Below, piece after piece: positions 6,601 through 20,704 of a DNA stretch of 20,704 nt. The notes beneath the pieces were generated by a model that saw only the letters and a program-made list of their open reading frames with translations, was not told where the DNA came from and searched no databases. The DNA is from a virus. Where the stretch lies: positions 1-20,704 of the IMG/VR virus record IMGVR_UViG_3300045999_001572, one strand, 5' to 3'. Numbering within the stretch: the stretch's first letter is position 1; each line of letters begins with the position of its first letter. A program made the position numbers and the translations under genes.

Positions 6601-9270
6601 ATTCGTTTCTTTGAAACAAATAGTCCTAATCGCGGAGCATTTATCAATCTAGCTTCTACTAGTGCTGGTGCTGCTACCGATCTTCTAGCGTCACCATCAG
6701 CAACAGATACAGTAGCTAGAAATTCGGCAGGTGCAGCATTTGATAAAGCTAACGCTGCCAACGTTCTGGCATTCAATGCTCTTCCAAATACAAACGGCGT
6801 AGTATTTAATGGAACTTTAACTGCGAGTGCAAATCTTTCAGCAGATAAAATAATATCGACAAACAACGGCAATGGTGAAAACTTCAGACTTGGTGATGAT
6901 GCTTGGATCGGCGATACAAATATTGCTAATGCTTTTCGTATTAAAGGTCAACAAAACGCATCAATTGGTTACGTTATATTTGGACCAAACGACGGCAAAC
7001 TTTTAGGTCGTGATGGTACAGGCCCCCTAACATATGACGGCAACAATGTTTGGCACGCTGGTAATGATGGAACGTCTTCGGGTTTAGATGCCGATCTGCT
7101 TGATGGTCAACAAGGTTCATATTACGCCATAGCTACTGATAGTGCTAATGCATTCAATAAAGCCAATGGTGCCAACGTTTTAGCATTCAATAGTGCTGCT
7201 GGTGCCAATGCTTGGGCTAACACAATAGGCATATATGCAAATGCTTATGCAAACGTTATTGGAACAAGATCGAATAACTTTGCTCTTTCTCTTGGAACTC
7301 AGTTTGATAGTATCAACACTTATGTTTTGAACACAGGTACTGCTGTTAATGCTTATGCAAACGTTATTGGAACAAGATCAAATAACTATGCTCTATCCAT
7401 TGTTGGTCCAGCATTTGATAAAGCCAACTCAACGACATACACATCAAATGTAGTAATTTCTGTTACTGATAACACTAATGCGGCACTAAGAATTACTCAG
7501 ACAGGTACTGGTGATGCAGTAAGAGTGGAAGACAGTGCAAATCCAGATAGCACTCCATTCGTCATTACGGCAACAGGTGATGTTGGTATTGGTGTAACAT
7601 CTCCCGATACAAAACTCGCAGTTGTAGGTAGTGGTCAAGGACTCAATTTTAATACTGCCGATAATCTTGGCGCATCAATTCTTGTTGGTGATAGCGGAAC
7701 AGCAGCTCAAAATGGTGGTTCAATTGTATTCTCTGCATTTTCTGAAGCATGGAAATTTGCTGCTATTAAATCACATGTTTTAAATGGCACATCAAATACA
7801 GTAGGCGACATTTCTATTCTTACTCGTCGTGTCACGACAGATTCAACATTAACAGAAACAGCGAGATTTACATTTACAGGTAACGTTGGTATAGGAACAA
7901 ATAATCCGCAATACAAACTTGACGTTTCTGGCGCAGTAAATGCTTCGGCCTTTCTAATTAATGGTATTCCTGCTCTTCCAAATACATCTGGCATTTCTTT
8001 TAATGGAAATCTAAATTTTCCAAATGGTAATGTATCTATCGGTTCAACCACATCAGAAGGTCTTCTAACTCTTAGAGGTTATACTGGAGGCACTGTAGGT
8101 TCTGTTGTCGATAATTTTACAAAAACTCTTGTTATCGGTGGCGCTTATAATCAACCTTATAATTCAGGCAATACAGTACTACTTCACATATTAGACTATG
8201 ATAATGATACTGGTTCTGATGTTTATCCTGTCTACATTGAAGATGAAAACAACATTGTTGACTTTTTCATAAACGCAGGAAATAACGGAACAATTAGCAC
8301 GAAAAAAGTATATGTTGGAGGAAATTTAGGTATTGGCATTACATCTCCAACATCTAAGTTGCATGTTTCTGGCACAGCAAATATTACCTCTTCACTAGAA
8401 GTATTAGGATCAAACATAACATCTGCAATTGCAGCAGGCAACACGTTTACACATACTATTGGTGGCGCAGCATTTTTCCAAGCTAATCAAGCCTTCGCTG
8501 ATGCTAATACTGCTGAAACATGGGCAGCAGGAGCCTTCTTAAGAGGTAACGTTGCATGGCTTCATGCCAATGCAGCATTCTTCCAAGCTAATCAAGCCTT
8601 CGCTGACGCTAATACTGCTGAAACATGGGCAGCAGGAGCCTTCTTAAGAGGTAACGTAGCGTTTAGTCAAGCAAATCAGGCATTTGCTGTTGCGAATGCG
8701 GCACTACCTTCTTCATCGTATACAGCAGCAGATGTTTTAAGCAAATTATTGACTGTTGATGGTACAGGATCATTATTAGATGCCGATCAGCTGGACGGTT
8801 GGCATCAGTCAGAACTTGGAGGAAAACAGTTAGCAGCCGCTTCTGTAGGAACAGGTACTACGGCAGATTATAGTTGGGTTACTGCAGGATCTATAAATTG
8901 GTCAGGGCCGGCACCTGTTCATCTTAGTGTTATGCTTAGAGGTCTGAGTCATGGCGCAGCAACTTCTCAGCCACTTAGGATTCAGTTTTCGGATGATAAG
9001 GGTGTAACGTTTACGACAGCAATAAACATTTCTCCGCCTGTTGCGGCTTCTACAGCATTAAACGGACACATACTTGTTTACAGACCATCTGCAACAACAT
9101 CAACTAAAGTTATAGTATGGAATACAAGCCCACAAGATCGCTCTAGTTCAAATGTAGGAACATGGGAACTTCCAGGCGCTGGCGGCACGGCAGCATTGTC
9201 TAATGTTAGATTTGGTTTTGCTTCTGGTAATTTTGACGCAGGAACAGTTTATGTCTATGCTTATAGTTAA
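3655..9270 (+). CDS. Giant tail-fibre-like structural protein with Ala-Phe-Asn heptads
   Basis: 1871 residues from the ATG at 3655 (TAATG overlap); an ATG at 3637 lies inside the previous gene and is less likely. After a roughly 90-residue N-terminal region (MAVAISNLTAYWATSASSV...), helical AFxxANx heptads dominate, with ANVLAFN occurring 11 times. Set between them are beta domains: about 5175-5530 (TGGTITGNVSIVGNLFISGN to NADLITSNLVLGG), 6430-6730, 6780-7120 (ends GLDADLLDGQQGSYY), 7440-7660 (ALRITQTGTG, VEDSANPDSTP, GIGVTSP), 7660-7990 (VGIGTNNP) and 8030-8390 (GIGITSP). The tip, 8701-9270, has LLDADQLDGWHQS and a beta-rich end. DADxLDG and GIGxTSP motifs are frequent in phage fibres. Likely a trimeric fibre that alternates coiled-coil shaft and beta knobs. 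No S74 chaperone domain is seen; a chaperone gene follows. Confidence 0.87.
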   Translation: MAVAISNLTAYWATSASSVNTAIKMNANDVVSAANSKLLDLQVNDVSKFVVFKSGNTVANGIIVANSFVTSGGINLISAIQTINVGSGDIGPAFFQANQAFSQANQAFAAANSSSPQSIGDAFGQANLAFAKANAANVLAFNTGAGANAWTNTVYGFINTYTQTVGTAGNAYAREVGTAGNVYARTVGTAGNVYAREVGTAGNTYTQTVGAASNSYADSLFASSGGSAGQAFNKANTANITADQAFNRANAANVLAFNSAAGANAWTNTVYGFINTYTQTVGTAGNTYAQSVGAASNLLVGAAFFQANQAFAVANTSGAEAEGAFFQANQAFNTANTAAANALGAFTRSNVAWFHANAAFFQANQAFAEANTAETSASAAFNKANSANVLAFNSAAGANAWTNAVYGFTNTYIQTVGAASNLLVGAAYSQANQAFNTANTAAANALGAFSRSNITFTHANAAFSQANQAFAVANTAGAEAEGAFFQANQAFALANAANVLAFNALPKTGGTITGNVSIVGNLFISGNSQFQNVTTLSIGDPLIYLAANNYSSDIVDIGFIANYVNSTGSNVHTGLYREHENKMYYLFQGYDKEPVDNHIGALSNNMTLAVLNADLITSNLVLGGINAISWISGAFTRANTANITADQAFNRANAANVLAFNSAAGANAWVNTVYGFTNTYIQTVGTASNVWSNTIGVYANAYANVIGTRSNNYALSIVGPAFNQANSANVLAFNSAAGANAWVNTVYGFTNTYTQTVGAASNSLAVAAFSQANQAFAQANTSSPQTVADAFGQANQAFAQANAANVLAFNSAAGANAWANTIGVNANAYANVIGTRSNNYALSIVGPAFNKANDANVLAFNSAAGANAWTNTVYGLSNTFTHTIGGAAFGQANLAFARANGSFNQANQAFALANAANVLAFNALPKTGGTVTGDLILTGTTILINNSAGAGGTDEGGEIKLANPTSNSILSGPIAIDIYQNRIRFFETNSPNRGAFINLASTSAGAATDLLASPSATDTVARNSAGAAFDKANAANVLAFNALPNTNGVVFNGTLTASANLSADKIISTNNGNGENFRLGDDAWIGDTNIANAFRIKGQQNASIGYVIFGPNDGKLLGRDGTGPLTYDGNNVWHAGNDGTSSGLDADLLDGQQGSYYAIATDSANAFNKANGANVLAFNSAAGANAWANTIGIYANAYANVIGTRSNNFALSLGTQFDSINTYVLNTGTAVNAYANVIGTRSNNYALSIVGPAFDKANSTTYTSNVVISVTDNTNAALRITQTGTGDAVRVEDSANPDSTPFVITATGDVGIGVTSPDTKLAVVGSGQGLNFNTADNLGASILVGDSGTAAQNGGSIVFSAFSEAWKFAAIKSHVLNGTSNTVGDISILTRRVTTDSTLTETARFTFTGNVGIGTNNPQYKLDVSGAVNASAFLINGIPALPNTSGISFNGNLNFPNGNVSIGSTTSEGLLTLRGYTGGTVGSVVDNFTKTLVIGGAYNQPYNSGNTVLLHILDYDNDTGSDVYPVYIEDENNIVDFFINAGNNGTISTKKVYVGGNLGIGITSPTSKLHVSGTANITSSLEVLGSNITSAIAAGNTFTHTIGGAAFFQANQAFADANTAETWAAGAFLRGNVAWLHANAAFFQANQAFADANTAETWAAGAFLRGNVAFSQANQAFAVANAALPSSSYTAADVLSKLLTVDGTGSLLDADQLDGWHQSELGGKQLAAASVGTGTTADYSWVTAGSINWSGPAPVHLSVMLRGLSHGAATSQPLRIQFSDDKGVTFTTAINISPPVAASTALNGHILVYRPSATTSTKVIVWNTSPQDRSSSNVGTWELPGAGGTAALSNVRFGFASGNFDAGTVYVYAYS
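4561..4854 (+). repeat. Run of 14 uninterrupted 21-bp (heptad) coding repeats
   Basis: Read from 4561, the codons fall into 14 successive seven-residue units, mostly of the form A-F-x-x-A-N-x: AFFQANQ, AFAVANT, SGAEAEG, AFFQANQ, AFNTANT, AAANALG, AFTRSNV, AWFHANA, AFFQANQ, AFAEANT and so on to SAAGANA. Ala at positions 1 and 5 gives 4-3 spacing as in coiled coils, with Phe next to the first Ala and Asn at position 6. Similar runs occur elsewhere in both fibre genes, broken by short phase shifts. Confidence 0.85.
5752..7413 (+). repeat. Dispersed ~67-bp repeat family in the giant fibre gene
   Basis: Three near-identical copies, at about 5752-5818, 6133-6199 and 7348-7413, encode NAYANVIGTRSNNYALSIVG followed by PAF. 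They differ by a few third-position changes, such as TAT/TAC and AAC/AAT. A partial copy near 7240-7290 switches to the NNFALSLGTQF variant, which is also found in the first fibre gene. Confidence 0.8.
8467..8657 (+). repeat. Tandem 105-bp period repeat near the fibre tip
   Basis: Bases 8467-8552 and 8572-8657 are 86-bp copies with two mismatches by eye, offset by 105 bp, which is exactly five heptads (35 residues). They encode FFQANQAFADANTAETWAAG and then AFLRGNVA. The exact heptad multiple keeps the coiled-coil register. Confidence 0.88.
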
Positions 9271-9279
9271 GGAATAAAA

Positions 9280-9576
9280 ATGACAAAATACTTTCACACT
9301 GTAATTACATTAGATGGAGTTTTTGAAGTTCCTTTTACTCAAGAAGAAGCGACTGAAAGAGAATTACAAGAATTTCATGCTACTTGGGCAGGTCTAAGAT
9401 TTGAAAGAGATCAGAAGCTACAAGAAACTGACGTTTTGGTCTTGCCTGATCGTTGGATGAGATATACTCCAGAAAAGCAACAGGCCATATCAGATTATCG
9501 ACAAGCTCTCAGAGATTTGCCAGATACAGTAGAAGATCCATTCAATTTTACATGGCCAGAACCACCTAACATATAA
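9280..9576 (+). CDS. Tail fibre assembly chaperone-like protein (copy 2)
   Basis: 98 residues, nine bases after the giant fibre gene, with an AAGGA ribosome site overlapping that gene's stop. The C-terminal region has LRFERDQKLQETD near 39-51, DRWMRYTPEKQQ, and YRQALRDLPDTVEDPFNFTWP near 72-92. This mirrors the copy at 2362-2655 in the conserved LR..R...L.E.D, DRW and YRQ.LRDLPD...DPFN.TWP positions, while the N-terminal 35 residues differ. This fits a shared folding domain with a client-specific N-terminus (inference). It is the last gene of the fibre module; a late promoter box sits at its stop codon. Confidence 0.8.
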   Translation: MTKYFHTVITLDGVFEVPFTQEEATERELQEFHATWAGLRFERDQKLQETDVLVLPDRWMRYTPEKQQAISDYRQALRDLPDTVEDPFNFTWPEPPNI

Positions 9577-9579
9577 ATA
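9572..9579 (+). promoter_or_regulatory. T4-type late promoter box before gene 13
   Basis: An exact TATAAATA lies across the stop of the chaperone gene, 20 bases before the gene 13 ATG, followed by a GAGG ribosome site (9589-9592). TATAAATA is the known -10-like box of T4 late promoters, recognised by the gp55 sigma factor. Its placement at the start of the neck-gene operon supports function. Confidence 0.65.
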
Positions 9580-9599
9580 CTCTATAAAGAGGTAAAAAA

Positions 9600-10340
9600 A
9601 TGGCTATACCAGCAAGCAGAGAACAACACAAAGATTGGTGCCTAAGACAATTGGGTCATCCAGTTATTCAGATCAACGTTGATGATGATCAAGTTGATGA
9701 CTGTGTAGACATGTCTCTACAATACTTTCAAGATTTTCATTTTGATGGAGTAGAACGTTGGTATCTCAAGCATAAACTTACTGCCGAAAACATTACCAAT
9801 CAATACATTCCAATCACAGAAAACATCATTGGTGTAAATAGAGTTTTTCCTGTAAGCACGACTAACGCCACGATCAATATGTTTGACTTGCGCTATCAGT
9901 TGCGCCTACATGAACTGTATGACTTTACATCCACATCATATGTCAACTATGTTTTGACAATGCAGCACATTCGCACACTGGACTTGCTATTTTCTGGTGA
10001 ACAACCAATTCGTTTCAATCGTCATACCGACAAGCTATATTTGGACATGAACTGGGCAATGGTTCAGCCAGACGAGTGGCTAGTTATTGAAGGTTTCATA
10101 ATAGTCGATCCTGACACATATACTGATGTGTGGAATGATAGAATGCTCAAGCGTCTGACAACTTCTTATATCAAGAGAGTTTGGGGCAACAATATGAAGA
10201 AGTTTGGTGGTATGCAGTTGCCTGGCGGTATTACTATGAACGGTCAGCAAATCTATGACGAAGCTGTTGCCGAAATTAAAGAAATAGAAGACTTAATCCG
10301 TAACACATACGAAGAACCACCTCAGTTTCTTCTTGGATAA
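9600..10340 (+). CDS. gp13: Neck protein gp13 (head completion)
   Basis: 246 residues, shorter than T4 gp13 (about 309). It begins MAIPASREQHKDWCLRQLGH and continues with PVIQINVDDDQVDDCVDMSL, then QYFQDFHFDGVERWYLKH. This N-terminal block of an acidic helix plus FHFDGVE...YLKH is typical of T4-like gp13. A middle segment has RLHELYDFTSTSY, and the C-terminus has LITSYIKRVWGNN-like and MQLPGGITMNGQQIYDEA regions. In T4, gp13 and gp14 form the neck that seals the DNA-filled head and joins it to the tail. A GAGG ribosome site lies seven bases before the ATG, and gene 14 begins three bases after the stop. Located in the cytoplasm during assembly, then in the virion neck. Confidence 0.93.
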   Translation: MAIPASREQHKDWCLRQLGHPVIQINVDDDQVDDCVDMSLQYFQDFHFDGVERWYLKHKLTAENITNQYIPITENIIGVNRVFPVSTTNATINMFDLRYQLRLHELYDFTSTSYVNYVLTMQHIRTLDLLFSGEQPIRFNRHTDKLYLDMNWAMVQPDEWLVIEGFIIVDPDTYTDVWNDRMLKRLTTSYIKRVWGNNMKKFGGMQLPGGITMNGQQIYDEAVAEIKEIEDLIRNTYEEPPQFLLG

Positions 10341-10343
10341 GAC

Positions 10344-11216
10344 ATGGCAACCTCAAATTATTTCAACAATTTTAATCCAGCAACGACAAACGAAAATCTT
10401 TTACTAGAGGATTTGATTGTTGAATCTATTCAAATTATGGGACATGACGTTCAGTATCTTCCTAGAGAAGTATATGATTCTGCTGATGATGTATTAGGCG
10501 AGAGTGTCAATTCCAAATTTAGTCGTGCATACAGAATGGAAATGTATCTAGCCAACGTTGAAGGTTATGAAGGCGACGGCGACTTCTTCTCTAAGTTTGG
10601 TCTAGAAATTCGTGATACATCAAACTTTGTTATTTCTCGTAGAACGTTTGAAAGATATGTTCCAAAAACTATCGCTATCAGACCTCGCGAAGGCGATCTG
10701 ATCTATGTTCCTTTGTTAGCTAAAATTTTTGAAATCAAGTTTGTTGAAGAAGAACTGCTATTCTTCTCACTAGGCAAGCGTAATCCTTATATATATGAAT
10801 TGCGCTGTGAAGTCTTCCGTTATAGCAACGAAGACTTTGAGACAGGAGATGATGCAATTGACGCGATTGAACATTCTTCTGGATATACCATTCAGCTTAC
10901 ATTTGGCAGCGGATCTGGCAATTACATTCTTGACGAAAATGTTTATCAGGGAGCAAATCTTGCTTATGCTACAGTGGTTGCCGAAGTCAAGCATTGGATT
11001 CCAGAAAACAAGATTTTGGAAGTTGTAAACATCAAGGGAGCGTTTAGTAATACTCTACCTGTCATTGGTGTCACATCAAACACTCGTTATACTCTAACAA
11101 GCAGTGATGATTTGGCAGACTTGGTTGATTATGATGATAGTGATAACAGAGTTATTCAAAATGAGGCCGCTACATTTATTGATTTGAGTGAAATTAATCC
11201 ATTTGGAGTTCCATAA
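10344..11216 (+). CDS. gp14: Neck protein gp14 with extra C-terminal VYQG domain
   Basis: 290 residues against about 256 in T4. The N-terminal part (LEDLIVESIQIMGHDVQYLP, residues 21-40, then REVYDSADDVLGE) and SKFGLEIRDTSNFVISRRTF are typical of T4-like gp14. Residues about 189-255 form a beta domain (NYILDENVYQGANLAYATVV ... GAFSNTLPVIGV) which aligns without gaps to one in gp15. This insertion could account for the greater length. The C-terminus returns to a gp14-like FIDLSEINPFGVP. In T4, gp14 works with gp13 as a collar and head-tail joining part. Its stop overlaps gene 15 (TAATG), which suggests coupled translation. Confidence 0.93.
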   Translation: MATSNYFNNFNPATTNENLLLEDLIVESIQIMGHDVQYLPREVYDSADDVLGESVNSKFSRAYRMEMYLANVEGYEGDGDFFSKFGLEIRDTSNFVISRRTFERYVPKTIAIRPREGDLIYVPLLAKIFEIKFVEEELLFFSLGKRNPYIYELRCEVFRYSNEDFETGDDAIDAIEHSSGYTIQLTFGSGSGNYILDENVYQGANLAYATVVAEVKHWIPENKILEVVNIKGAFSNTLPVIGVTSNTRYTLTSSDDLADLVDYDDSDNRVIQNEAATFIDLSEINPFGVP

Positions 11217-12223
11217 TGCTATCAAGTCAATACTTTTATCATCAGCTAACTCGTAAGTATGTTATTCTTTTTGGTAATATGTTCAATACTATTACCGTAA
11301 TGAGAAAGAACAAGGAAACTGGCAGTGAAATAGAACGCTTTAAAGTGCCTATCGTATATGCTCCAAAAGAAAAGTACTTTTCACGACTAAGAGCGGATCC
11401 TGATTTGAACAGACCTATTCAGGTTTTGCTTCCTCGCATGTCGTTTGAACTTGTTGGCTTTCAATACGATGCTACCAGAAAACAAAACTCTCTAATAAGA
11501 AATAGTAGTGCAAATACTTCAACCAAGTTTGCAACTCAGTATATGGGTGTACCATACAATCTATCTTTCGATCTTCAAATATATGCTCGTAATGTGGACG
11601 ATGGTACCCATATTGTTGAGCAAATTTTACCTTATTTTGCTCCTGGTTATACGATCACGGCCAATGTTATTCCTGAGATGGACTTTCTCAAAGACATTCC
11701 TATTGTTTTGAACAACGTAACAAACACTATTGAACATGAAGGTAACTTTGACTCTGTTAGATATGTTTCATGGACACTCAACTTTACAATGAAAACATAC
11801 TATTTTGGTCCAGTTGCCACTCAGGGTATCATCAGAAAAGTCTTTACAAATATCTATCATGATGATAGTCTTCAAGCAGGATCTATTGTTCGTGTTAACA
11901 CAAACAACGGAAATAATGGAACATATAAGATAGATGATACTGTCTATCAGGGCGGTAACTATCAGACTGCTACAGCATTCGGTAAAGTATTTGCATGGAA
12001 TGCAAACACAGGCAAGCTTGTGATTACAGGCGCACAAGGTACGTTTACGACAAACAGTAAGATTATAGCGGTATCTACGAATGCTTCTTACAATCTTTCA
12101 TCTTTTGAAGCAGCTCCGCTCAAGTTGGTTGAGATCAAGATTGAACCTAATCCTATTGATGCTGAACCTGAAGATGATTACGGATATACAACAACTATTA
12201 CAGAGTGGCCTAATACAATATGA
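11216..12223 (+). CDS. gp15: Tail completion / sheath stabiliser gp15 with extra VYQG domain
   Basis: 335 residues against about 272 in T4. The start is at a TAATG overlap, with GGAG (11205-11208) upstream. MLSSQYFYHQLTRKYVILFG (1-20), NTITVMRK, PIVYAPKEKYFSRLRADPDL and LPRMSFELVGFQYDATRKQN are hallmarks of T4-like gp15. It continues with MGVPYNLSFDLQIYARNVDD and WTLNFTMKTYYFGPV. Residues about 234-297 are a beta domain shared with gp14 (VYQG at 243-246), followed by a short LVEIKIEPNP tail. In T4, a gp15 hexamer caps the tail tube and sheath and contacts the neck. The gene ends in an ATGA overlap with gene 16. Confidence 0.94.
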   Translation: MLSSQYFYHQLTRKYVILFGNMFNTITVMRKNKETGSEIERFKVPIVYAPKEKYFSRLRADPDLNRPIQVLLPRMSFELVGFQYDATRKQNSLIRNSSANTSTKFATQYMGVPYNLSFDLQIYARNVDDGTHIVEQILPYFAPGYTITANVIPEMDFLKDIPIVLNNVTNTIEHEGNFDSVRYVSWTLNFTMKTYYFGPVATQGIIRKVFTNIYHDDSLQAGSIVRVNTNNGNNGTYKIDDTVYQGGNYQTATAFGKVFAWNANTGKLVITGAQGTFTTNSKIIAVSTNASYNLSSFEAAPLKLVEIKIEPNPIDAEPEDDYGYTTTITEWPNTI

Positions 12224-12657
12224 GTAAGACACATGATGCGCTAAGTGAAGCTCTTGGTATAGAATCTTCAAAAAGTGTGGAAATTATACCGCCGAAGAAA
12301 GAACAGGAAGTTACAGTCAATACTCCGCATGAGGAAGATGACATAAAAGCCGACTATAATCTTTCTCGCAGAACTTTTCGTGATTTGATTAGTAAAGGCA
12401 ATCAAGCTATTGAAGGCATTACCGACTTGGCTAAAGAGTCGGAAAGTCCAAGAGCATATGAAGTTTTGGCTACACTTATGAAAACTGTGGCAGATACAAC
12501 CAAAGACCTTTACGATTTGCAGAAGAAGACTAAAGACCTTAAAGATAATGGCAAAAAAGAAGAAACTACTGTAACAGTTGAAAAAGCAGTGTTTGTTGGC
12601 AGTACAGCCGAATTACTTCAACGAGTTAAAGAAGAGAAGAGAAATGAAAAGCTTTAA
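12220..12657 (+). CDS. gp16: Small terminase subunit gp16
   Basis: 145 residues against 164 in T4; it starts within the gene 15 stop (ATGA). The N-terminus has LSEALGIE (8-15), found in T4-type small terminases, followed by a charged linker. A central helical region (LSRRTFRDLISKGNQAIEGI, 48-67, then AYEVLATLMKTVADTTKDLY, 79-98) matches the oligomerising coiled-coil core. The tail is Lys/Glu-rich with LLQRVKEEKRNEKL. It binds DNA ends and regulates the gp17 packaging motor. Unlike T4, gene 17 does not follow at once: three genes come between, and the first of them starts inside the last 14 bases of this gene. Confidence 0.92.
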   Translation: MSKTHDALSEALGIESSKSVEIIPPKKEQEVTVNTPHEEDDIKADYNLSRRTFRDLISKGNQAIEGITDLAKESESPRAYEVLATLMKTVADTTKDLYDLQKKTKDLKDNGKKEETTVTVEKAVFVGSTAELLQRVKEEKRNEKL

Positions 12658-13177
12658 ACAGTTTATAAAAGAGTCCGTCGGTTCTTCGCTTTCACAGTGG
12701 AAAAATGAAGAACCTGTCAAATATACCGAGCATCTTCAAAAGTTTTTTGGTAAACCAGACGAATTGACCGCTAATAGAGCAGTATGGTATGATGTAGACG
12801 GATTCAAGAGAATTGAAGTGTTAGATGAGTATATTCTACACTCTTCGCCTGTGCCACACTACGACTATGTTTATTCTTATGTTGATCTAAAAGTTCCACA
12901 TAAGTTGTCAAATGCTTTGGCAGATAGCAGCGAGAGCATTCTTCTTGATCATCTTAAAGGTGAAGTTGGCGCGAGATGTGCAAGTCTAAGCGCAAATGCA
13001 GTTACAATACAGTATGTGCTAGATGTGGTAGAAGGTAACGTTAAACCAAGTAAAGAAGAATATGAGTCTCGCATCAAGTCAATGAAGGCGATGTTTAAGA
13101 ATGGTAAAAAGTATGAACTTGATTGGTGGCCAGATGAGACGGGTGACGCTGATCCAAAGAATCCATATTATAAATGA
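12644..13177 (+). CDS. Putative capsid-targeted internal protein, family unknown
   Basis: 177 residues from the ATG at 12644. The frame extends back to 12578, but that part only shadows gene 16; the internal ATG gives the conserved N-terminus MKSFKQFIKE|S and has purine-rich GAAGAGAAGAG upstream. This decapeptide matches the T4 capsid-targeting sequence pattern MKTYQEFIAE|A, with the cleavage site [IL]-x-E of prohead protease gp21 after Glu10. The mature part contains FFGKPDELTANRAVWYDVDG (34-53), HSSPVPHYDYVYSYVDLKVP (66-85) and a helical region ending in ELDWWPDETGD. I do not recognise a domain. Inferred role: packaged in the capsid and ejected with DNA. The function of the mature domain is unknown. 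Confidence 0.8.
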   Translation: MKSFKQFIKESVGSSLSQWKNEEPVKYTEHLQKFFGKPDELTANRAVWYDVDGFKRIEVLDEYILHSSPVPHYDYVYSYVDLKVPHKLSNALADSSESILLDHLKGEVGARCASLSANAVTIQYVLDVVEGNVKPSKEEYESRIKSMKAMFKNGKKYELDWWPDETGDADPKNPYYK

Positions 13178-13186
13178 GACAATCAA

Positions 13187-13594
13187 ATGAAAACTTTTAG
13201 AGAGTTTATATTAGAACAAGCAGAACATCCTGGTGGAGTAGAAGCTACTGCTGGTGTTGGATTTGGACTAGGAAAAGAACAACAAAGATATAGATTTAAA
13301 GTTTCCGAACTAATAAAACACGCTCAAGACAAAAAAACTAAAGCGTTGAAAGTTGATTCCCTGGCAAAGAGAACATTAGGAAATCGTGAAGGCGAATCAA
13401 AAGAAAGCGAAACAAAAAGAGTTCAAAATGCCAGCCTAGAACATCCTATTATTACAACTCGTCATCCTGAACACGGTCATGTTGTCTTAGACGGAACTCA
13501 TAGACTACAAAAAGCAAGAGATGCTGGACATGAGACTATTCAAGCAAGAAATATTCCATGGCGCGAAATGAAAAGATACAGAATAAAAGAATGA
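13187..13594 (+). CDS. Putative capsid-targeted protein with ParB/sulfiredoxin-like core
   Basis: 135 residues; the ATG lies nine bases after the previous stop. The N-terminus MKTFREFILE|Q matches the capsid-targeting pattern, with an [IL]-x-E cleavage site after Glu10. A Gly-rich linker follows (VEATAGVGFGLGKE). Residues about 37-122 look like a ParB/Srx fold: FKVSELIKHAQ at the start, then HPIITTRHPEHGHVVLDGTH (86-105), then RLQKARDAGHETIQARNIP. DG-x-HR followed by A...G...I.AR is the usual strand-loop-helix core of ParB-like nucleases and related nucleotide-binding proteins. Being short, it holds little beyond tag plus core. Activity (nuclease, CTP or ATP use, DNA binding) cannot be judged. 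It ends in an ATGA overlap with the next gene. Confidence 0.78.
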   Translation: MKTFREFILEQAEHPGGVEATAGVGFGLGKEQQRYRFKVSELIKHAQDKKTKALKVDSLAKRTLGNREGESKESETKRVQNASLEHPIITTRHPEHGHVVLDGTHRLQKARDAGHETIQARNIPWREMKRYRIKE

Positions 13595-14328
13595 AAACGT
13601 TTCGTCAGTTTATCAGAGAACAAAAAGAAAGTATAGCACCTCAAGGAGTAATCTTTAAAGGTAATAAAATTGCTTTTGTCGGCGAAGAACATGGCACTCC
13701 AATAAAGTTGAATCCTGATATTCTGCGAAGAGTTCAAGATATTGGTAAGAAATATGGTTATTGGTACGAAGGTAGTGGTGGCGGCGCAGACAATAACAAG
13801 AAAATTTTTGGTAATAGAAGTAACTATGAAGGATCTTGGGACGATGAGTTTAGAAAAGAAATTGATGGTTATCCAATAGAGTTCATTTATACATTATTTT
13901 CTAATCCTGAGGTTAATGGTCAAAAAGAATCATTAATTGATCTAAAACTTTCCATATTTGACAGCATTCTAAAGAATCAAAAGAAGTTCTCTTTCTTCAA
14001 AGATAGAGAGTATGGTTCAGCAGAGTTAAAAGAGTTTTTAACCAAAGCAAGTGAATCTCACACGAACTTTATAGAATTAAGCAGCCAACCAGCAACAAAA
14101 GAAAATGTTGCATCTTTCATTGACAAAGGTGACAAGCTAATGTGGCCGAAGAACTGGGAAGAGTATCCAAATAATGCTGGTAAACTTGCAAAAAAAGCAA
14201 ATGATATGAGAGATAATTATCTGTTGAGTAGAACAGAAGGAGTTTATTTTGCTGGTTCAGGACATCTAAAAGACCTTATTGATCTTGATAGTTCTTTAAA
14301 ATTGATTGGCGGAGAAAAGATTGAGTAA
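13591..14328 (+). CDS. Putative capsid-targeted TraB/ChaN/EreA-fold protein
   Basis: 245 residues from the ATG at 13591 (ATGA overlap). The open frame begins at 13558, but that would add 11 residues ahead of the conserved MKTFRQFIRE|Q tag, so the later start is chosen. After the tag comes KIAFVGEEHGT (26-36), then a 170-residue helical middle. The C-terminal pattern is MRDNYLL with Arg207, followed by GVYFAGSGHLKDL with GSGH at 222-225. A first G-E-x-H, a late Arg-containing helix and a final hydrophobic strand ending G-x-G-H form the signature of the TraB/PrgY/TIKI, ChaN and erythromycin-esterase-like superfamily (hydrolases or metal-binding enzymes). The fold match is by motif only. Inferred role: an enzyme carried in the capsid and injected on infection. 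Its last eight bases overlap the gene 17 start. Confidence 0.75.
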   Translation: MKTFRQFIREQKESIAPQGVIFKGNKIAFVGEEHGTPIKLNPDILRRVQDIGKKYGYWYEGSGGGADNNKKIFGNRSNYEGSWDDEFRKEIDGYPIEFIYTLFSNPEVNGQKESLIDLKLSIFDSILKNQKKFSFFKDREYGSAELKEFLTKASESHTNFIELSSQPATKENVASFIDKGDKLMWPKNWEEYPNNAGKLAKKANDMRDNYLLSRTEGVYFAGSGHLKDLIDLDSSLKLIGGEKIE

Positions 14329-15985
14329 AGGTTACAATAACAATCCAAATCTTCCAAAAGAAGATTACAAACATGCTTTCTCTCAGCAAGAGCTAGACGA
14401 GTTTATAAAGTGCGCTGACGATCCTGTATACTTTGCCACAAAATACATGAAGATCATCAACGTTGATCATGGTCTTATGCCATTTCGCATGTGGGACTTT
14501 CAGAAAGACATGCTCAATACGTTTCATGAGAATCGCTTTTCCATCTGTAAACTTCCACGTCAGGTCGGTAAGACAACTACATCTGTTGCATTTTTATTAC
14601 ACTACATTCTGTTCAATGAAAATGTAAACGTAGCCATTCTTGCCAACAAGGCCGCAACAGCCCGCGAAATCATGGGTCGTCTACAGTTAGCTTTTGAATA
14701 TCTACCGCGCTTTCTACAGCAGGGCGTCAAAGAATGGAATAAAGGTTCTATTGAACTGGCAAATGGATCTCGCGCTCTTGCGGATTCTACTTCTGGCAGC
14801 TCTGTTCGTGGTCGTTCCTTTAACGTAGTATTCCTTGACGAGTTTGCGTTCGTTCCGAACAATATTGCCGAAGCATTCTTCATGTCGACCTATCCTACTA
14901 TTTCTTCTGGTCAGACAACAAAAGTTATTATCGTTTCCACTCCCAATGGACTCAATCAGTTCTATCGTATGTGGACAGAATCAGTTGAACATCGCTCTGA
15001 TTATGTTCCTGTAGAAATTCACTGGAGTATGGTACCAGGTCGCGACGAGGCGTGGAAAGAGCAGACTATTCGTAATACGTCCGAAGATCAGTTCAGACAA
15101 GAGTTTGAGTGTGAGTTTATTGGTTCTACAAACACTCTTATTCATCCTGCCAAGTTGAGATCGCTGGTCTGGTTAAATCCAGTTCGTCATGATGGATTCA
15201 TGGACATTTATAAAGAACCCGAAGCAGGACGCACTTATACGATGACAGTAGATGTGGCCGAAGGTCAGGGTCTAGATTACTCGACGTTTTCTATATTTGA
15301 TGTTACAGAAATACCTTATAGGCAAGTTGCTAAATACAAAAACAATAAGATTACTCCACTGCTATTTCCAACAATCATTCTGCAAGCTGCAAAGATGTAT
15401 AATGAGGCATTTGTTCTGGTGGAAATCAACTCAATTGGACTTCAGGTAGCCGACATTCTACATTTTGAACTGGCTTATGACAATCTGATAAAGATTCAAG
15501 CTAAAGGTAAACAAGGTCAGCAGTCTACACCAGGATTTACCAAAAAGATCGCTTATGGTCTTAAGACTTCGGTCCAGACGAAAAACATCGGATGTGCCAA
15601 TCTCAAGACGCTAATCGAAAGTGATAAACTTATTATAAACGACAAAGACACAATTTCAGAGCTGATGACCTTTTCTTCTGACAAGAAGAGTTTCAAGGCA
15701 GAAGAGGGCAATACTGACGATTTGGCTATGACTTTGGTACATTTTGGATGGCTTACCGCTCAAAGATACTTCAAAGAAAACATTAAAAACGACATACGAC
15801 AAACTCTGCAAGAAGAGCAATTGAACTTACTGGATCAAGATATTATGCCTTTTGGCGCCATATCTGGATATCAAGGTAATGATACGAGCATGGATTATGA
15901 ACTAGATGAGAATGGTAATGTATGGTTTGAGGATAGAAGCAAAAGATATCCTTGGGACGACTTAAATTGGAAAGTTAAACTGTAA
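14321..15985 (+). CDS. gp17: Large terminase subunit gp17 (ATPase-nuclease)
   Basis: 554 residues using TTG at 14321, which has GGAG (14311-14314) six bases upstream. An earlier TTG at 14306 has no ribosome site. ATPase domain: Walker A LPRQVGKT (78-85), Walker B VVFLDEF (169-175) and coupling motif STPNG (206-210). Nuclease domain: TVDVAEGQGLDYS with Asp311, VLVEINSIG with Glu368, and the acidic pair Asp466/467 in NTDDLAMTLVHFGWLT, matching the RNase H-like metal site of T4 gp17. All catalytic positions are present, so it appears functional. It powers DNA packaging into the prohead through portal gp20 and cuts the concatemer. T4 gp17 is 610 residues; this one is shorter, mainly at the C-terminus by eye. 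Confidence 0.96.
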   Translation: MSKGYNNNPNLPKEDYKHAFSQQELDEFIKCADDPVYFATKYMKIINVDHGLMPFRMWDFQKDMLNTFHENRFSICKLPRQVGKTTTSVAFLLHYILFNENVNVAILANKAATAREIMGRLQLAFEYLPRFLQQGVKEWNKGSIELANGSRALADSTSGSSVRGRSFNVVFLDEFAFVPNNIAEAFFMSTYPTISSGQTTKVIIVSTPNGLNQFYRMWTESVEHRSDYVPVEIHWSMVPGRDEAWKEQTIRNTSEDQFRQEFECEFIGSTNTLIHPAKLRSLVWLNPVRHDGFMDIYKEPEAGRTYTMTVDVAEGQGLDYSTFSIFDVTEIPYRQVAKYKNNKITPLLFPTIILQAAKMYNEAFVLVEINSIGLQVADILHFELAYDNLIKIQAKGKQGQQSTPGFTKKIAYGLKTSVQTKNIGCANLKTLIESDKLIINDKDTISELMTFSSDKKSFKAEEGNTDDLAMTLVHFGWLTAQRYFKENIKNDIRQTLQEEQLNLLDQDIMPFGAISGYQGNDTSMDYELDENGNVWFEDRSKRYPWDDLNWKVKL

Positions 15986-18686: not shown

Positions 18687-18703
18687 TTAGATTGGAGAAA
18701 GTA

Positions 18704-20425
18704 ATGGCAGTTCAGCTATTCGGCTTTGAGATAGGTCGTAAAAAACAGCAAGACAAAGACGAACAAAGTAAGACTTTTGCGTTACCGCCCAATGATGATG
18801 GCGCGGTAACAATACAGTCTGGCGCTTATTATGGTACATATGTTGATCTAGATGGCACAGTTCGTAATGAAGTCGAACTGATTACCCGTTATAGAGAAAT
18901 GTCTATGCAGCCAGAACTTGAAACTGCAATTGATGAAATTGTTAATGAAGCGATTGTTCAAGATGATGACGGTAAGGCGGTCGAGATTAACGATGATAAT
19001 CTCAAGCAAAATGCTGCAATCAAGAAAAAAATCCAAGAAGAATTTAATTACATACTGAAGTTGCTTAATTTTGGTAACATGGGACATGATATTTTCCGTC
19101 GTTGGTACATTGACGGTCGTATGTTCTATCATATCGTAATTGACGAAAAAAGTCCTAACAAAGGCATTCAAGAGCTAAGATACATTGATCCTCGCCGTAT
19201 TCGCAAAATTCGTGAAATCCAAAAAGTTAAAGAACCTGGATCAGGCATAGAAGTTATCAAAAGAATTAACGAATACTACCTATACAATGAACGTGGTATT
19301 ATTGGAGCGCATTCAAATCTAGGCACAAAGATTGCTGTAGATTCTATTGTTAACGTTAATTCAGGACTAATGGACGCCAAACGTTCAATGGTCTTATCTT
19401 ATTTACACAAAGCAATCAAGCCTCTCAATCAGCTTAGAATGGTTGAAGATGCTGTTGTTATCTACAGACTCTCACGCGCACCCGAGCGCAGAGTGTTTTA
19501 TGTGGACGTTGGCAACATGCCAACAGTAAAGGCTGAACAATATCTCCGCGATATTATGGTAAAGTATCGCAACAAATTAGTGTACGATTCAAATACTGGC
19601 GAAATTAAAGACGACCGTAAGCATCTTTCAATGCTGGAAGATTTCTGGTTACCTCGTAGAGAAGGTTCTAGAGGAACTGAAATTACAACATTGCAGGGCG
19701 GTCAAAATCTTGGCGAATTAGAAGACGTTAAATATTTTGAAAAGAAGCTATATAAAGCTCTTGGCGTTCCTATTTCCAGACTAGAACAGCAACAAGGTTT
19801 TTCTCTTGGTCGCACAACAGAAGTTACTAGAGATGAACTTAAGTTTAATAAGTTTGTTCAGAGACTTCGTTCAAAGTTTTCTACACTGTTTGATGATCTT
19901 CTTCGCGTACAACTTGTTCTCAAGAAAGTATGTTCAGAAGATGAATGGAACGAGTTTAAAGAAGAAATCTGGTACGATTTCAAGAAAGACAACAACTTTA
20001 CAGAACTAAAAGAAGCTGAACTTCTTCAAAATAGACTATCGATGTTACAGCTTATTGATCCATATGTTGGACGTTACTATTCAACTGAATGGGTTCGTAA
20101 GAAAGTTCTCATGATGGACGACGAAGAAATTGAAGAAGTCATGCAGCAAATTGAAAATGAAAAAGCTGCCGATGTACCTACCGATGATCAAGGTAATCCA
20201 TTGCCGCAGCAAGCAGGTGCACCTGTACCAAACATTGTTCCTCCAACACCACAGGAACAAATGATGCAGCAATATGCAGCACAACAAGGTGTGCCTCCTG
20301 AACAAATGCCTGTTCAAGATGGTACAGGCAAAGATCAGATGAATCCATTAGATATGGGAACAGATGCTCAACAAATGAGAAATCGTCAAAGATTTGTAAA
20401 TGATACTTTGGAGCCAGCTAGATAA
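18704..20425 (+). CDS. gp20: Portal vertex protein gp20
   Basis: 573 residues from the ATG at 18704, which has GGAG (18694-18697) six bases upstream; the frame could begin at a TTG at 18692, but that overlaps the ribosome site. T4 gp20 is 524. Landmarks: ITRYREMSMQPELETAIDEI (60-79) then VNEAIV, ELRYIDPRRIRKIREI (157-172), RAPERRVFYVDVGNMP (258-273), EDFWLPRREGSRGTEITTLQ (312-331) and LGVPISRLEQQQGFSLGRTT (353-372). These are conserved in T4-like portals. The added length is a Pro/Gln-rich C-terminal tail (about 490-573). The dodecamer sits at one vertex, nucleates the prohead, docks gp17 and later the neck. The stop overlaps the next start (TAATG). Confidence 0.96.
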   Translation: MAVQLFGFEIGRKKQQDKDEQSKTFALPPNDDGAVTIQSGAYYGTYVDLDGTVRNEVELITRYREMSMQPELETAIDEIVNEAIVQDDDGKAVEINDDNLKQNAAIKKKIQEEFNYILKLLNFGNMGHDIFRRWYIDGRMFYHIVIDEKSPNKGIQELRYIDPRRIRKIREIQKVKEPGSGIEVIKRINEYYLYNERGIIGAHSNLGTKIAVDSIVNVNSGLMDAKRSMVLSYLHKAIKPLNQLRMVEDAVVIYRLSRAPERRVFYVDVGNMPTVKAEQYLRDIMVKYRNKLVYDSNTGEIKDDRKHLSMLEDFWLPRREGSRGTEITTLQGGQNLGELEDVKYFEKKLYKALGVPISRLEQQQGFSLGRTTEVTRDELKFNKFVQRLRSKFSTLFDDLLRVQLVLKKVCSEDEWNEFKEEIWYDFKKDNNFTELKEAELLQNRLSMLQLIDPYVGRYYSTEWVRKKVLMMDDEEIEEVMQQIENEKAADVPTDDQGNPLPQQAGAPVPNIVPPTPQEQMMQQYAAQQGVPPEQMPVQDGTGKDQMNPLDMGTDAQQMRNRQRFVNDTLEPAR

Positions 20426-20704
20426 TGAAGAAGTATGAAGAGTTCATCGCTGAATCTTTAGCTGCTGAGATTAAGTCAGAACCTAAATCAAATGCATCAA
20501 GAGAAGCTAGAAGACTCGGTCTAACTTATGTAGGATTTGGACGTTATGCTGATAATAAAGGACGAGTTGCATATCTTGTAGATAATGATAGACTTGTTCC
20601 TTTTAAATCGCAAGAAGATGTACAAGGAATGTACAAAAAGGCACGTGAGATGCCATCTTCTGAATCAACTAAAGCCTTAGAAGCACAAGCCTCCTCTCTT
20701 CCTC
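20425..20704 (+). CDS. Putative capsid-targeted prohead/internal protein, 3'-truncated by window edge
   Basis: The ATG lies in a TAATG overlap with the portal stop, and the frame stays open to the window end (93 residues visible). The N-terminus MKKYEEFIAE|S closely matches the T4 capsid-targeting sequence MKTYQEFIAE|A, including FIAE before the expected gp21 cut. Residues 31-60 (LGLTYVGFGRYADNKGRVAY, then LVDNDRLVPF) resemble a short Y-x-G-F-G-R-Y motif that I have seen in other T4-like virion proteins. After it come charged, Ser/Ala-rich helices. In T4 the gene after 20 is 67, a prohead core protein, so a scaffold-core or internal protein is likely. Homology to gp67 itself is not visible. 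Confidence 0.75.
   Translation, partial: MKKYEEFIAESLAAEIKSEPKSNASREARRLGLTYVGFGRYADNKGRVAYLVDNDRLVPFKSQEDVQGMYKKAREMPSSESTKALEAQASSLP

Follow-up and report, generated by a model that had tools for sequence, protein, structure and literature searches.

Candidate internal-protein cargo genes carrying a T4-type capsid targeting sequence between the terminase genes of T4-like phages

The window analysed here, a 20,704-nucleotide stretch of viral DNA (positions 1 to 20,704 of IMG/VR record IMGVR_UViG_3300045999_001572), contains part of the structural module of a T4-like phage in the order gp13-gp14-gp15-gp16-three inserted genes-gp17-gp18-gp19-gp20-start of a further gene. Matches to T4-type families in Pfam or PHROGs were found for gp13, gp14, gp15, gp16, gp17, gp18 and gp20; gp19 is assigned by position only. 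The inserted genes, here called A, B and C, lie between the genes for the two terminase subunits; these genes, gp20 and the gene after it are all on the plus strand. The left border is gp16, the small subunit (12220..12657; phrog_445, 6.3e-40; Pfam DNA_Packaging, 7.3e-13), and the right border is gp17, the large subunit (14321..15985; Pfam Terminase_6N, 5e-28; phrog_2, 1.1e-60), which starts with TTG at 14321 and has GGAG upstream. A (12644..13177) encodes 177 residues, B (13187..13594) 135 and C (13591..14328) 245. The original prediction made for this locus described the junctions as they are found in the open reading frame (ORF) coordinates: a 14-bp overlap between gp16 and A, a 9-bp gap between A and B, an ATGA overlap of 4 between B and C, and an 8-bp overlap between C and gp17. 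It also stated correctly that genes 16 and 17 are adjacent in T4, where they overlap directly with nothing between them (T4 record).

Each of the three genes begins with the same kind of ten-residue sequence. A starts MKSFKQFIKE followed by S (12644..12673), with predicted cleavage after Glu10; the tag of B is MKTFREFILE followed by Q (13187..13216), and that of C is MKTFRQFIRE followed by Q (13591..13620). The three starts had been the basis of the original prediction and are confirmed, as is the unrelatedness of the bodies behind them (blastp). The T4 internal proteins IPII and IPIII start MKTYQEFIAEA (T4 record). Ten residues of this capsid targeting sequence are sufficient in T4, with residues 4 and 7 governing targeting and residues 8 and 10 governing processing (PMC9026906). 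A fourth tagged gene, overlooked in the original prediction, follows the portal gene gp20 (18692..20425; phrog_213, 4e-213) and is cut by the end of the window. Its first 93 codons (20425..20704) encode a protein beginning MKKYEEFIAESLAAEIK, which resembles the N-terminus of a 317-residue ADP-ribosyltransferase (ART; L188:5755-6708; PF03496, 1.2e-17). The tag of this gene, MKKYEEFIAE followed by S (20425..20454), is close to MKTYQEFIAE of T4. The targeting and processing residues of the T4 sequence are present in A, B, C and the window ART, and the bodies of the four proteins, with the first 13 residues removed, form separate blastp groups. A degenerate DNA pattern for the tag matched only the A, B and C sites in the window, with no match in a reversed control. 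The four coding stretches for the tag share 18-23 of 30 nucleotides (22-23 among A, B and C) and 5-8 of 10 residues in pairwise comparison, and one to four of the common residues differ in codon.

A strict tag was defined as M[KR]x[FYLI]xx[FYHL][ILMV]x[ED], with positions 3, 5, 6 and 9 unconstrained, in ORFs of at least 60 residues with an ATG start. Strictly tagged ORFs were collected from relatives found through gp17, two long relatives (G001 and G002), eight cyanophage loci, DLP6 and two T4 loci, and their bodies were grouped by blastp at E 1e-4 after removal of the first 13 residues. The 65 distinct ORFs fell into 24 body groups, two of them those of T4. Among one representative per group, Lys2 was found in 24, Thr or Ser at position 3 in 22, Phe or Tyr at position 4 in 23, Gln, Glu or Asp at position 6 in 23, Phe or Tyr at position 7 in 22, Ile or Leu at position 8 in 20, and Glu10 in 24, the pattern also permitting Asp there. 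As sequences, the tags match that of T4 also at positions that the pattern left free, and typically read M-K-[ST]-[FY]-x-[QED]-[FY]-[IL]-x-E. Elsewhere than at 16-17 or directly after gp20, the strict tag occurred in one of 1,328 distinct ORFs of at least 60 residues, and its recurrence is not due to chance because only this one other ORF matches. The raw count was 27 of 1,354; 19 of these were the gene after gp20, and seven were 16-17 cargo that slipped past the exclusion where the locus lacked gp16 or had a longer start upstream. In viral contigs, the tag pattern matched at least 120 stretches. A slightly wider pattern matched 7 of 11 records with none in the control, but five of the records had been picked by the pattern, so that no conclusion is drawn.

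The gene after gp20 often carries the tag. Loci with at least 400 bp beyond gp20 were counted, and were taken as distinct if the last 600 bp of gp20 differed; an ART was next after gp20, no more than about 150 bp away from the gp20 match, in 38 of 39 of them. The strict tag is present on 26 of these 38 ARTs, and most of the other 12 carry a variant such as MLRYDQFLSE or MMKFEDFISE. All four of the full-length homologues scanned match PF03496 (L188, 1.2e-17; L154, 1e-21; L128, 3.9e-26; L193, 7.2e-21). Elsewhere, the 167-kb relative G001 encodes a tagged 277-residue protein of the S-AdoMet_lyase family (L219:6344-7177; 2.3e-9, above the cut-off) and, as a further tagged gene, a GNAT protein, while its own 16-17 junction (L165) has a gap of just 5 bp. 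A search for the tag in other parts of the genome, which the original prediction had proposed, finds it in these relatives on the ART after the portal gene and on these two G001 proteins.

The 16-17 junction was then compared across relatives. The best 80 of 493 gp17 relatives in IMG/VR were kept and, with the window, gave 81 loci in 37 groups at 97% gp17 identity; two further gp17 scans returned mostly the same contigs. Insertions were counted from 150 bp upwards and inserted ORFs from 40 residues upwards; ORFs were called distinct if their last 60-100 residues differed, so that near relatives count apart. Insertions were found in 43 of the 71 loci with both genes, and in 25 of 36 gp17 groups, and the junction was shorter than 150 bp in the other 28 loci. 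The distinct inserted ORFs number 47, of which 35 have the strict tag, nine have a variant (for example MLTFKQYIRE, MKSYKQFISK or MLRFRQFLKE) and three have neither, namely an ORF in L142, a 62-residue ORF in L187 and an 87-residue ORF in L189. The original prediction had asked whether aligning this interval would reveal a hotspot with further such genes; it does, and 44 of the 47 inserted ORFs bear the tag or a variant. Five loci fetched later and outside the 47 (L348, L349, L354, L358 and L389) each have a strictly tagged insert. At the six other junctions between gp13 and gp20, insertions occurred in 13 of 323 locus-junctions, including 3 of 66 at 15-16 and 2 of 75 at 17-18, and none of the 18 distinct ORFs found there has the strict tag.

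The content of the junction changes readily. The insert of L201 is 637 bp long, and L199 and L202, whose gp17 is 97-98% identical, have 11 bp. On a tree of 55 gp17 sequences the empty and filled states require 13 changes (shuffled mean 17.0; as low in 18 of 500 shuffles), of which at least eight are forced by well-supported branches, and six classes of content require 25 (shuffled mean 28.1; as low in 16 of 200). Insert content is therefore tied weakly to the tree. Recognisable domains in the 16-17 cargo include ART-PolyVal in L152 (5.9e-8) and GNAT in L166 (2.1e-5), both above the cut-off, DUF5661 in L102 (7.8e-18, behind a variant tag), a ParB C-terminal-domain PHROG in L161 (2e-31) and GP88 in L389 (8.1e-9). 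Profile scans gave no domain match for many of the other cargo ORFs scanned, and no metabolic gene was recognised among the scanned 16-17 cargo. The common tag and the exchange of tagged genes at the 16-17 junction suggest a plug-in site for proteins delivered to the host with the DNA.

A has no match in Pfam or NCBIfam. Its homologues occur in 67 IMG/VR loci, many of them from uncultured phages, at 62-100% identity; some are tagged, some have other short heads (MKIHEILAES) and some are fused behind other domains, one of which is CTP_transf_like with a tag-like start. Residues 86-135 of A weakly match phrog_36941, 'head maturation protease' (0.005). In another uncultured phage (L287:346-5859), several consecutive genes have tag-like starts, among them MLKFTKFLTE, MINFSNFITE and MINRFSQFLVEE, and include a nucleotidyltransferase-like gene, recognised by eye, and a fusion with the A body; this is perhaps a second kind of cargo array. 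B matches phrog_17560, of unknown function (5.6e-12), and the ParB-like phrog_33277 (0.0052), and in tblastn against annotated phage records it matched 22 records at E 0.009 to 1. The best match was at 9e-3, and the matched genes are from Erwinia and Salmonella phages, several being annotated as ParB; B thus possibly carries a ParB/sulfiredoxin-like domain. In L189 (2684-3201) a 41-residue tagged ORF is followed by an untagged B-like piece, which looks like a decaying cargo gene.

C, which has no match in the curated families of Pfam and NCBIfam, occurs in 28 loci, of which 18 match in the body alone. These untagged homologues align from about residue 20-25, and in them the body stands by itself (216 residues) or is the first domain of proteins of 600-824 residues. 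Because the C body is untagged in 18 of 28 loci and the A body is found behind other heads, tag and body are separable modules. Two examples in which the C body forms the first domain (L243:1948-4212, 754 residues; L251:3941-5755, 604 residues) lie between ORFs that resemble, by eye, terminase and portal genes of other phages. A polyvalent ART at the C-terminus of these two proteins, also suggested by eye, was not counted, the L243 protein having no match in Pfam, PHROGs or NCBIfam. Searches by tblastn against annotated phage records found no match for A, C, the ART or the G001 protein of the S-AdoMet_lyase family.

The modular arrangement bears on another account of the three tandem genes, in which A, B and C arose by duplication and then diverged, and have N-termini that are alike by common descent only. 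Their tandem order with a common start and the 22-23 identical nucleotides of 30 in their tags favour such an origin. We consider it very improbable, since the 24 body groups have no blastp similarity at E 1e-4 and contain various known domains, and since the C body occurs untagged and the A body with other heads. Furthermore, a comparison of nine A orthologues gives 69% identity for the tag, a lower 49% for the six residues that follow it, and 90% for the body.

Predicted structures had low confidence in the tag and gave no firm fold match. The model of C has a mean predicted local distance difference test score (pLDDT) of 81, with residues 1-16 below 50, and the first ten residues of A have a mean pLDDT of 49. 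For C, the best PDB match (Z 3.9, 78 aligned residues, root mean square deviation (rmsd) 3.4) is not firm, and the sole viral match below E 0.001 in the structure search was an uncharacterised phage protein (1e-22). Two motifs of C, GEEHG and GSGHL, resemble a TraB/EreA-type pair by eye, but this is supported by no search; a TraB-family protein was matched in the structure search only at E 0.59. For A, the candidates were chains of the YbjN family and of type III secretion chaperones at Z 5-6, under the noise level quoted for the tool (top match: 104 aligned residues, rmsd 3.9), and these were not accepted. Profile searches of solved structures gave nothing below E 0.07.

The reading that we favour, with a probability of roughly 0.8, takes the 16-17 junction to be an accessory internal-protein island, whose tagged bodies enter the head, are cleaved and are injected. 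Every gene would pair its own effector body with the ten-residue capsid targeting sequence. As the head assembles, binding of the tag to the scaffold core would draw the protein into the prohead, where a gp21-type protease would cut after Glu10 and free the body; the freed bodies would be packaged alongside the DNA and enter the next host by injection, disarming it early, for example by inhibition of restriction or by modification of host proteins. The ART beside the portal gene would be a core cargo using the same tag, and may have the role of T4 Alt, while the 16-17 genes would be swapped between phages, the swapped bodies likely being, by analogy with T4, weapons against variable host defences or early modifiers of the host. 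Capsid entry is supported by this analogy and partly by cyanophage proteomes; for A, B and C themselves we infer cleavage, injection and targets. The T4-type late-promoter octamer TATAAATA was not found inside the cassette, and in the whole window it occurs only at chance frequency; the cassette genes, with their overlapping junctions, are probably transcribed with the late structural operon. The original prediction saw in their placement a means of making cargo along with the packaging motor, which it may be.

Alternatively, the tagged proteins might act inside the prohead as extra parts of the scaffold core or in DNA condensation, rather than as injected effectors. In favour of this, Alt and the internal proteins of T4 belong to the core along with gp21, gp22, gp67 and gp68 (PMC9026906), and much of the scanned cargo has no recognisable enzyme domain. 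Rapid swapping of unrelated bodies and a junction shorter than 150 bp in 28 of 71 loci are, however, unsuited to a role in assembly, and ART, GNAT and SAM (S-adenosylmethionine) lyase domains are hard to reconcile with a scaffold, so that this alternative appears unlikely.

Cleavage within the accessory-island reading depends on a gp21-type protease, the absence of which the original prediction had named as evidence against it. Of 20 records from relatives, most of them fragments, 15 contain gp21 (PF03420) and 14 contain gp23; the 20.7-kb window ends before the gp21 gene. In the relatives, the gp23 propeptides have LNE before Ala, Ser or Thr in 5 of 5 rows, and the start of gp22 has MNE before Ser or Asn in 6 of 7 rows. 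Like the tag, these fit a hydrophobic-x-Glu motif and are candidate cut sites.

A link between tag and virion was sought in three T4-like cyanophages with published mass spectrometry, to which the strict pattern, fixed beforehand, was applied: S-CREM2 (PMC10665884, Table 3), S-SCSM1 (PMC9602691) and S-SZBM1 (PMC9146016, Table 1). In S-CREM2 all four strictly tagged proteins were detected, compared with 52 of 219 genes overall (one-sided p = 0.003; p = 0.0003 outside structural and lysis genes, a post hoc test). They are a SAM hydrolase (19 peptides), an APH-like kinase (21), a cytidylyltransferase (3) and a 78-residue protein (1). A Cas9-like protein, also detected, has the tag-like RFASFMAE at residues 18-25, which the strict pattern does not count; the SAM hydrolase, kinase and Cas9-like genes jointly occupy L435:3837-5081, 7704-10313 and 10579-12846. 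Two proteins of the S-CREM2 16-17 interval were detected, gp136 (8 peptides), which starts with MQTFSMFFSED, a variant outside the strict pattern, and gp137 (4 peptides), which has no tag. In S-SCSM1 one of two strictly tagged proteins was detected, an NMNAT (MKSFLQFLKE; L432:39420-40649), the other being the 106-residue 16-17 protein MKTFKQFMSE, which is without a virion label. None of the three in S-SZBM1 was detected, two of them from the 16-17 interval; a cytidylyltransferase that was detected there starts with MRFRQFIIEA, a variant one residue short. Pooled, 5 of 9 strictly tagged proteins were detected with 1.7 expected (one-sided p = 0.014). Without SSZBM1_64 (CP12), whose match to the tag is probably due to chance and which is kept among the nine, the figures are 5 of 8 and p = 0.009. 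For S-SCSM1, two of four strict matches were dropped as not being annotated genes, and the 48 virion proteins labelled in the record were used (45 are given in the paper); S-SZBM1 was scanned to base 177,000 of 177,834, and S-CREM2 apart from bases 50,001-56,999, which lie inside one tail-fibre gene. For S-CREM1, 14 virion proteins are reported, and this phage was outside the tag test.

These data also bear on the possibility that the 16-17 junction is an ordinary hyperplastic site, whose genes are used in the infected cell, the shared N-terminus serving some other late localisation, to a membrane or a complex. In cyanomyoviruses the g15-g18 region is hyper-variable, with 4-14 genes that include metabolic functions (PMC2984593), and the maps of S-CAM9 and S-RIM4 upstream of gp17 fit such a site, as does the failure to detect the strictly tagged 16-17 proteins of S-SCSM1 and S-SZBM1 in virions (0 of 3). 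Set against this are the agreement of the tag with T4 at the targeting and processing residues and its presence on ARTs beside the portal gene and on enzymes detected in cyanophage virions, and we regard a purely intracellular use as improbable. The insertions of the present clade resemble the cyanomyovirus region in being variable and in lying in the same part of the structural module, at 16-17 here, but number one to three genes per interval in the loci listed, almost all of them tagged. In five cyanophage records the 16-17 interval contains a tagged gene of 102-106 residues, and relatives of this gene are present in 137 phage records, a count of similarity rather than of tag or place.

Several observations weigh against an accessory island of injected proteins. 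The 16-17 proteins of S-SCSM1 and S-SZBM1 may not be packaged, although short length and low copy number could explain why none of the three was seen. Four of the nine strictly tagged cyanophage proteins were undetected, and one of the five detected is represented by a single peptide; the authors of the proteomes consider that non-structural proteins are possibly contaminants after CsCl purification (PMC9602691, PMC10665884). Several tag variants alter residues that are important in T4, such as Lys10 in L102, L192 and L196, and may, on the T4 model, escape cleavage. In the nine A orthologues the tag is less conserved than the body, the window itself contains no gp21, and the specificity of gp21 in this clade is assumed from T4. 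Nor do the structural models establish a fold or function for A and C. The connection between tag and virion is in part supported, and is unproven for the 16-17 proteins. On balance, the accessory-cargo interpretation of the original prediction is supported by the tag, by the hotspot, by the tag in other places, by gp21 in relatives and by part of the cyanophage proteome data.

The closest known system is that of the T4 internal proteins, which inhibit distinct GmrSD restriction enzymes and have no common sequence beyond the leader (PMC12373910), and which vary among relatives (PMC12373910, PMC3012670, PMC9026906). The cargo described here has the same ten-residue N-terminal pattern and unrelated bodies. 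Unlike T4 ipII and ipIII, which lie beside gene e, it is found between genes 16 and 17, and its bodies, some with enzyme-type domains, have no blastp similarity to IPII or IPIII, the two internal proteins compared. T4 Alt is an injected ADP-ribosyltransferase that is processed by gp21 (PMC9026906, PMC5694885), being cut after ITE-6 (PMC5694885). The gene after gp20 shares with Alt an ART domain, seen as PF03496 in full-length homologues of the 93 codons in the window; it differs in having a tag of the internal-protein type and in belonging to the family PF03496, and is likened to Alt by domain and not by comparison with the Alt sequence. A third parallel is provided by the polyvalent proteins of phages and conjugative elements, which have been proposed to be injected effectors with ART, ParB-like and other domains (PMC5512222). 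One 16-17 cargo protein matches Pfam ART-PolyVal. In contrast to polyvalent proteins, the cargo is short and mostly of one domain, with one gene per effector and a common tag instead of fusion; A, B and C (135-245 residues) have at most one recognisable domain each and thus differ from multi-domain polyvalent proteins.

Elsewhere in the window are two related tail assembly chaperone genes, at 2362-2655 and 9280-9576 (Phage_tail_APC, 6.4e-16 and 3.1e-16). Each is directly behind a long ORF, of 678 and 1877 residues respectively, and these ORFs have similar repeated motifs.

A capsid targeting sequence with variable bodies was already known from T4, as was the plasticity of the g15-g18 region in cyanomyoviruses. 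As far as the literature was searched, four things are new: a 16-17 junction given over almost entirely to tagged cargo; the range of bodies that bear the tag, enzymes among them; a tagged ART next to the portal gene; and the presence of tagged cyanophage enzymes among virion-detected proteins. Among the literature matches listed, which lay mostly outside subscription papers, none connected cyanophages, or cargo between genes 16 and 17, with the capsid targeting sequence, and none contained the six exact tag strings. The one listed paper that mentions both this sequence and cyanophages is the T4 review (PMC9026906), where the word cyanophage stands in a reference entry.

The evidence leaves evenly poised a broader proposition, that environmental T4-like phages in general use the capsid targeting sequence of T4 as a portable address code, with 16-17 as its main plug-in site in this clade, and that it loads unrelated effectors into heads. 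If this is true, the effectors loaded would include ADP-ribosyltransferases, SAM lyase or hydrolase, kinases, nucleotidyltransferases, GNATs, ParB-like proteins and perhaps the Cas9 of S-CREM2; a scan for the N-terminal tag would directly list the proteins that enter the host at infection, and the recurrence of 'regulatory' enzymes in cyanophage virions would be accounted for. The tag is one possible reason for the SAM hydrolase, kinases and NMNAT-like proteins of cyanophage virion proteomes. Injected phage proteins act ahead of phage gene expression, and targets are known for only a few of them. With a short sequence rule that predicts such proteins, metagenomes would become a catalogue of candidate anti-defence and host-takeover proteins, covering both uncultured phages and the cultured Synechococcus phages in which the prediction is immediately testable.

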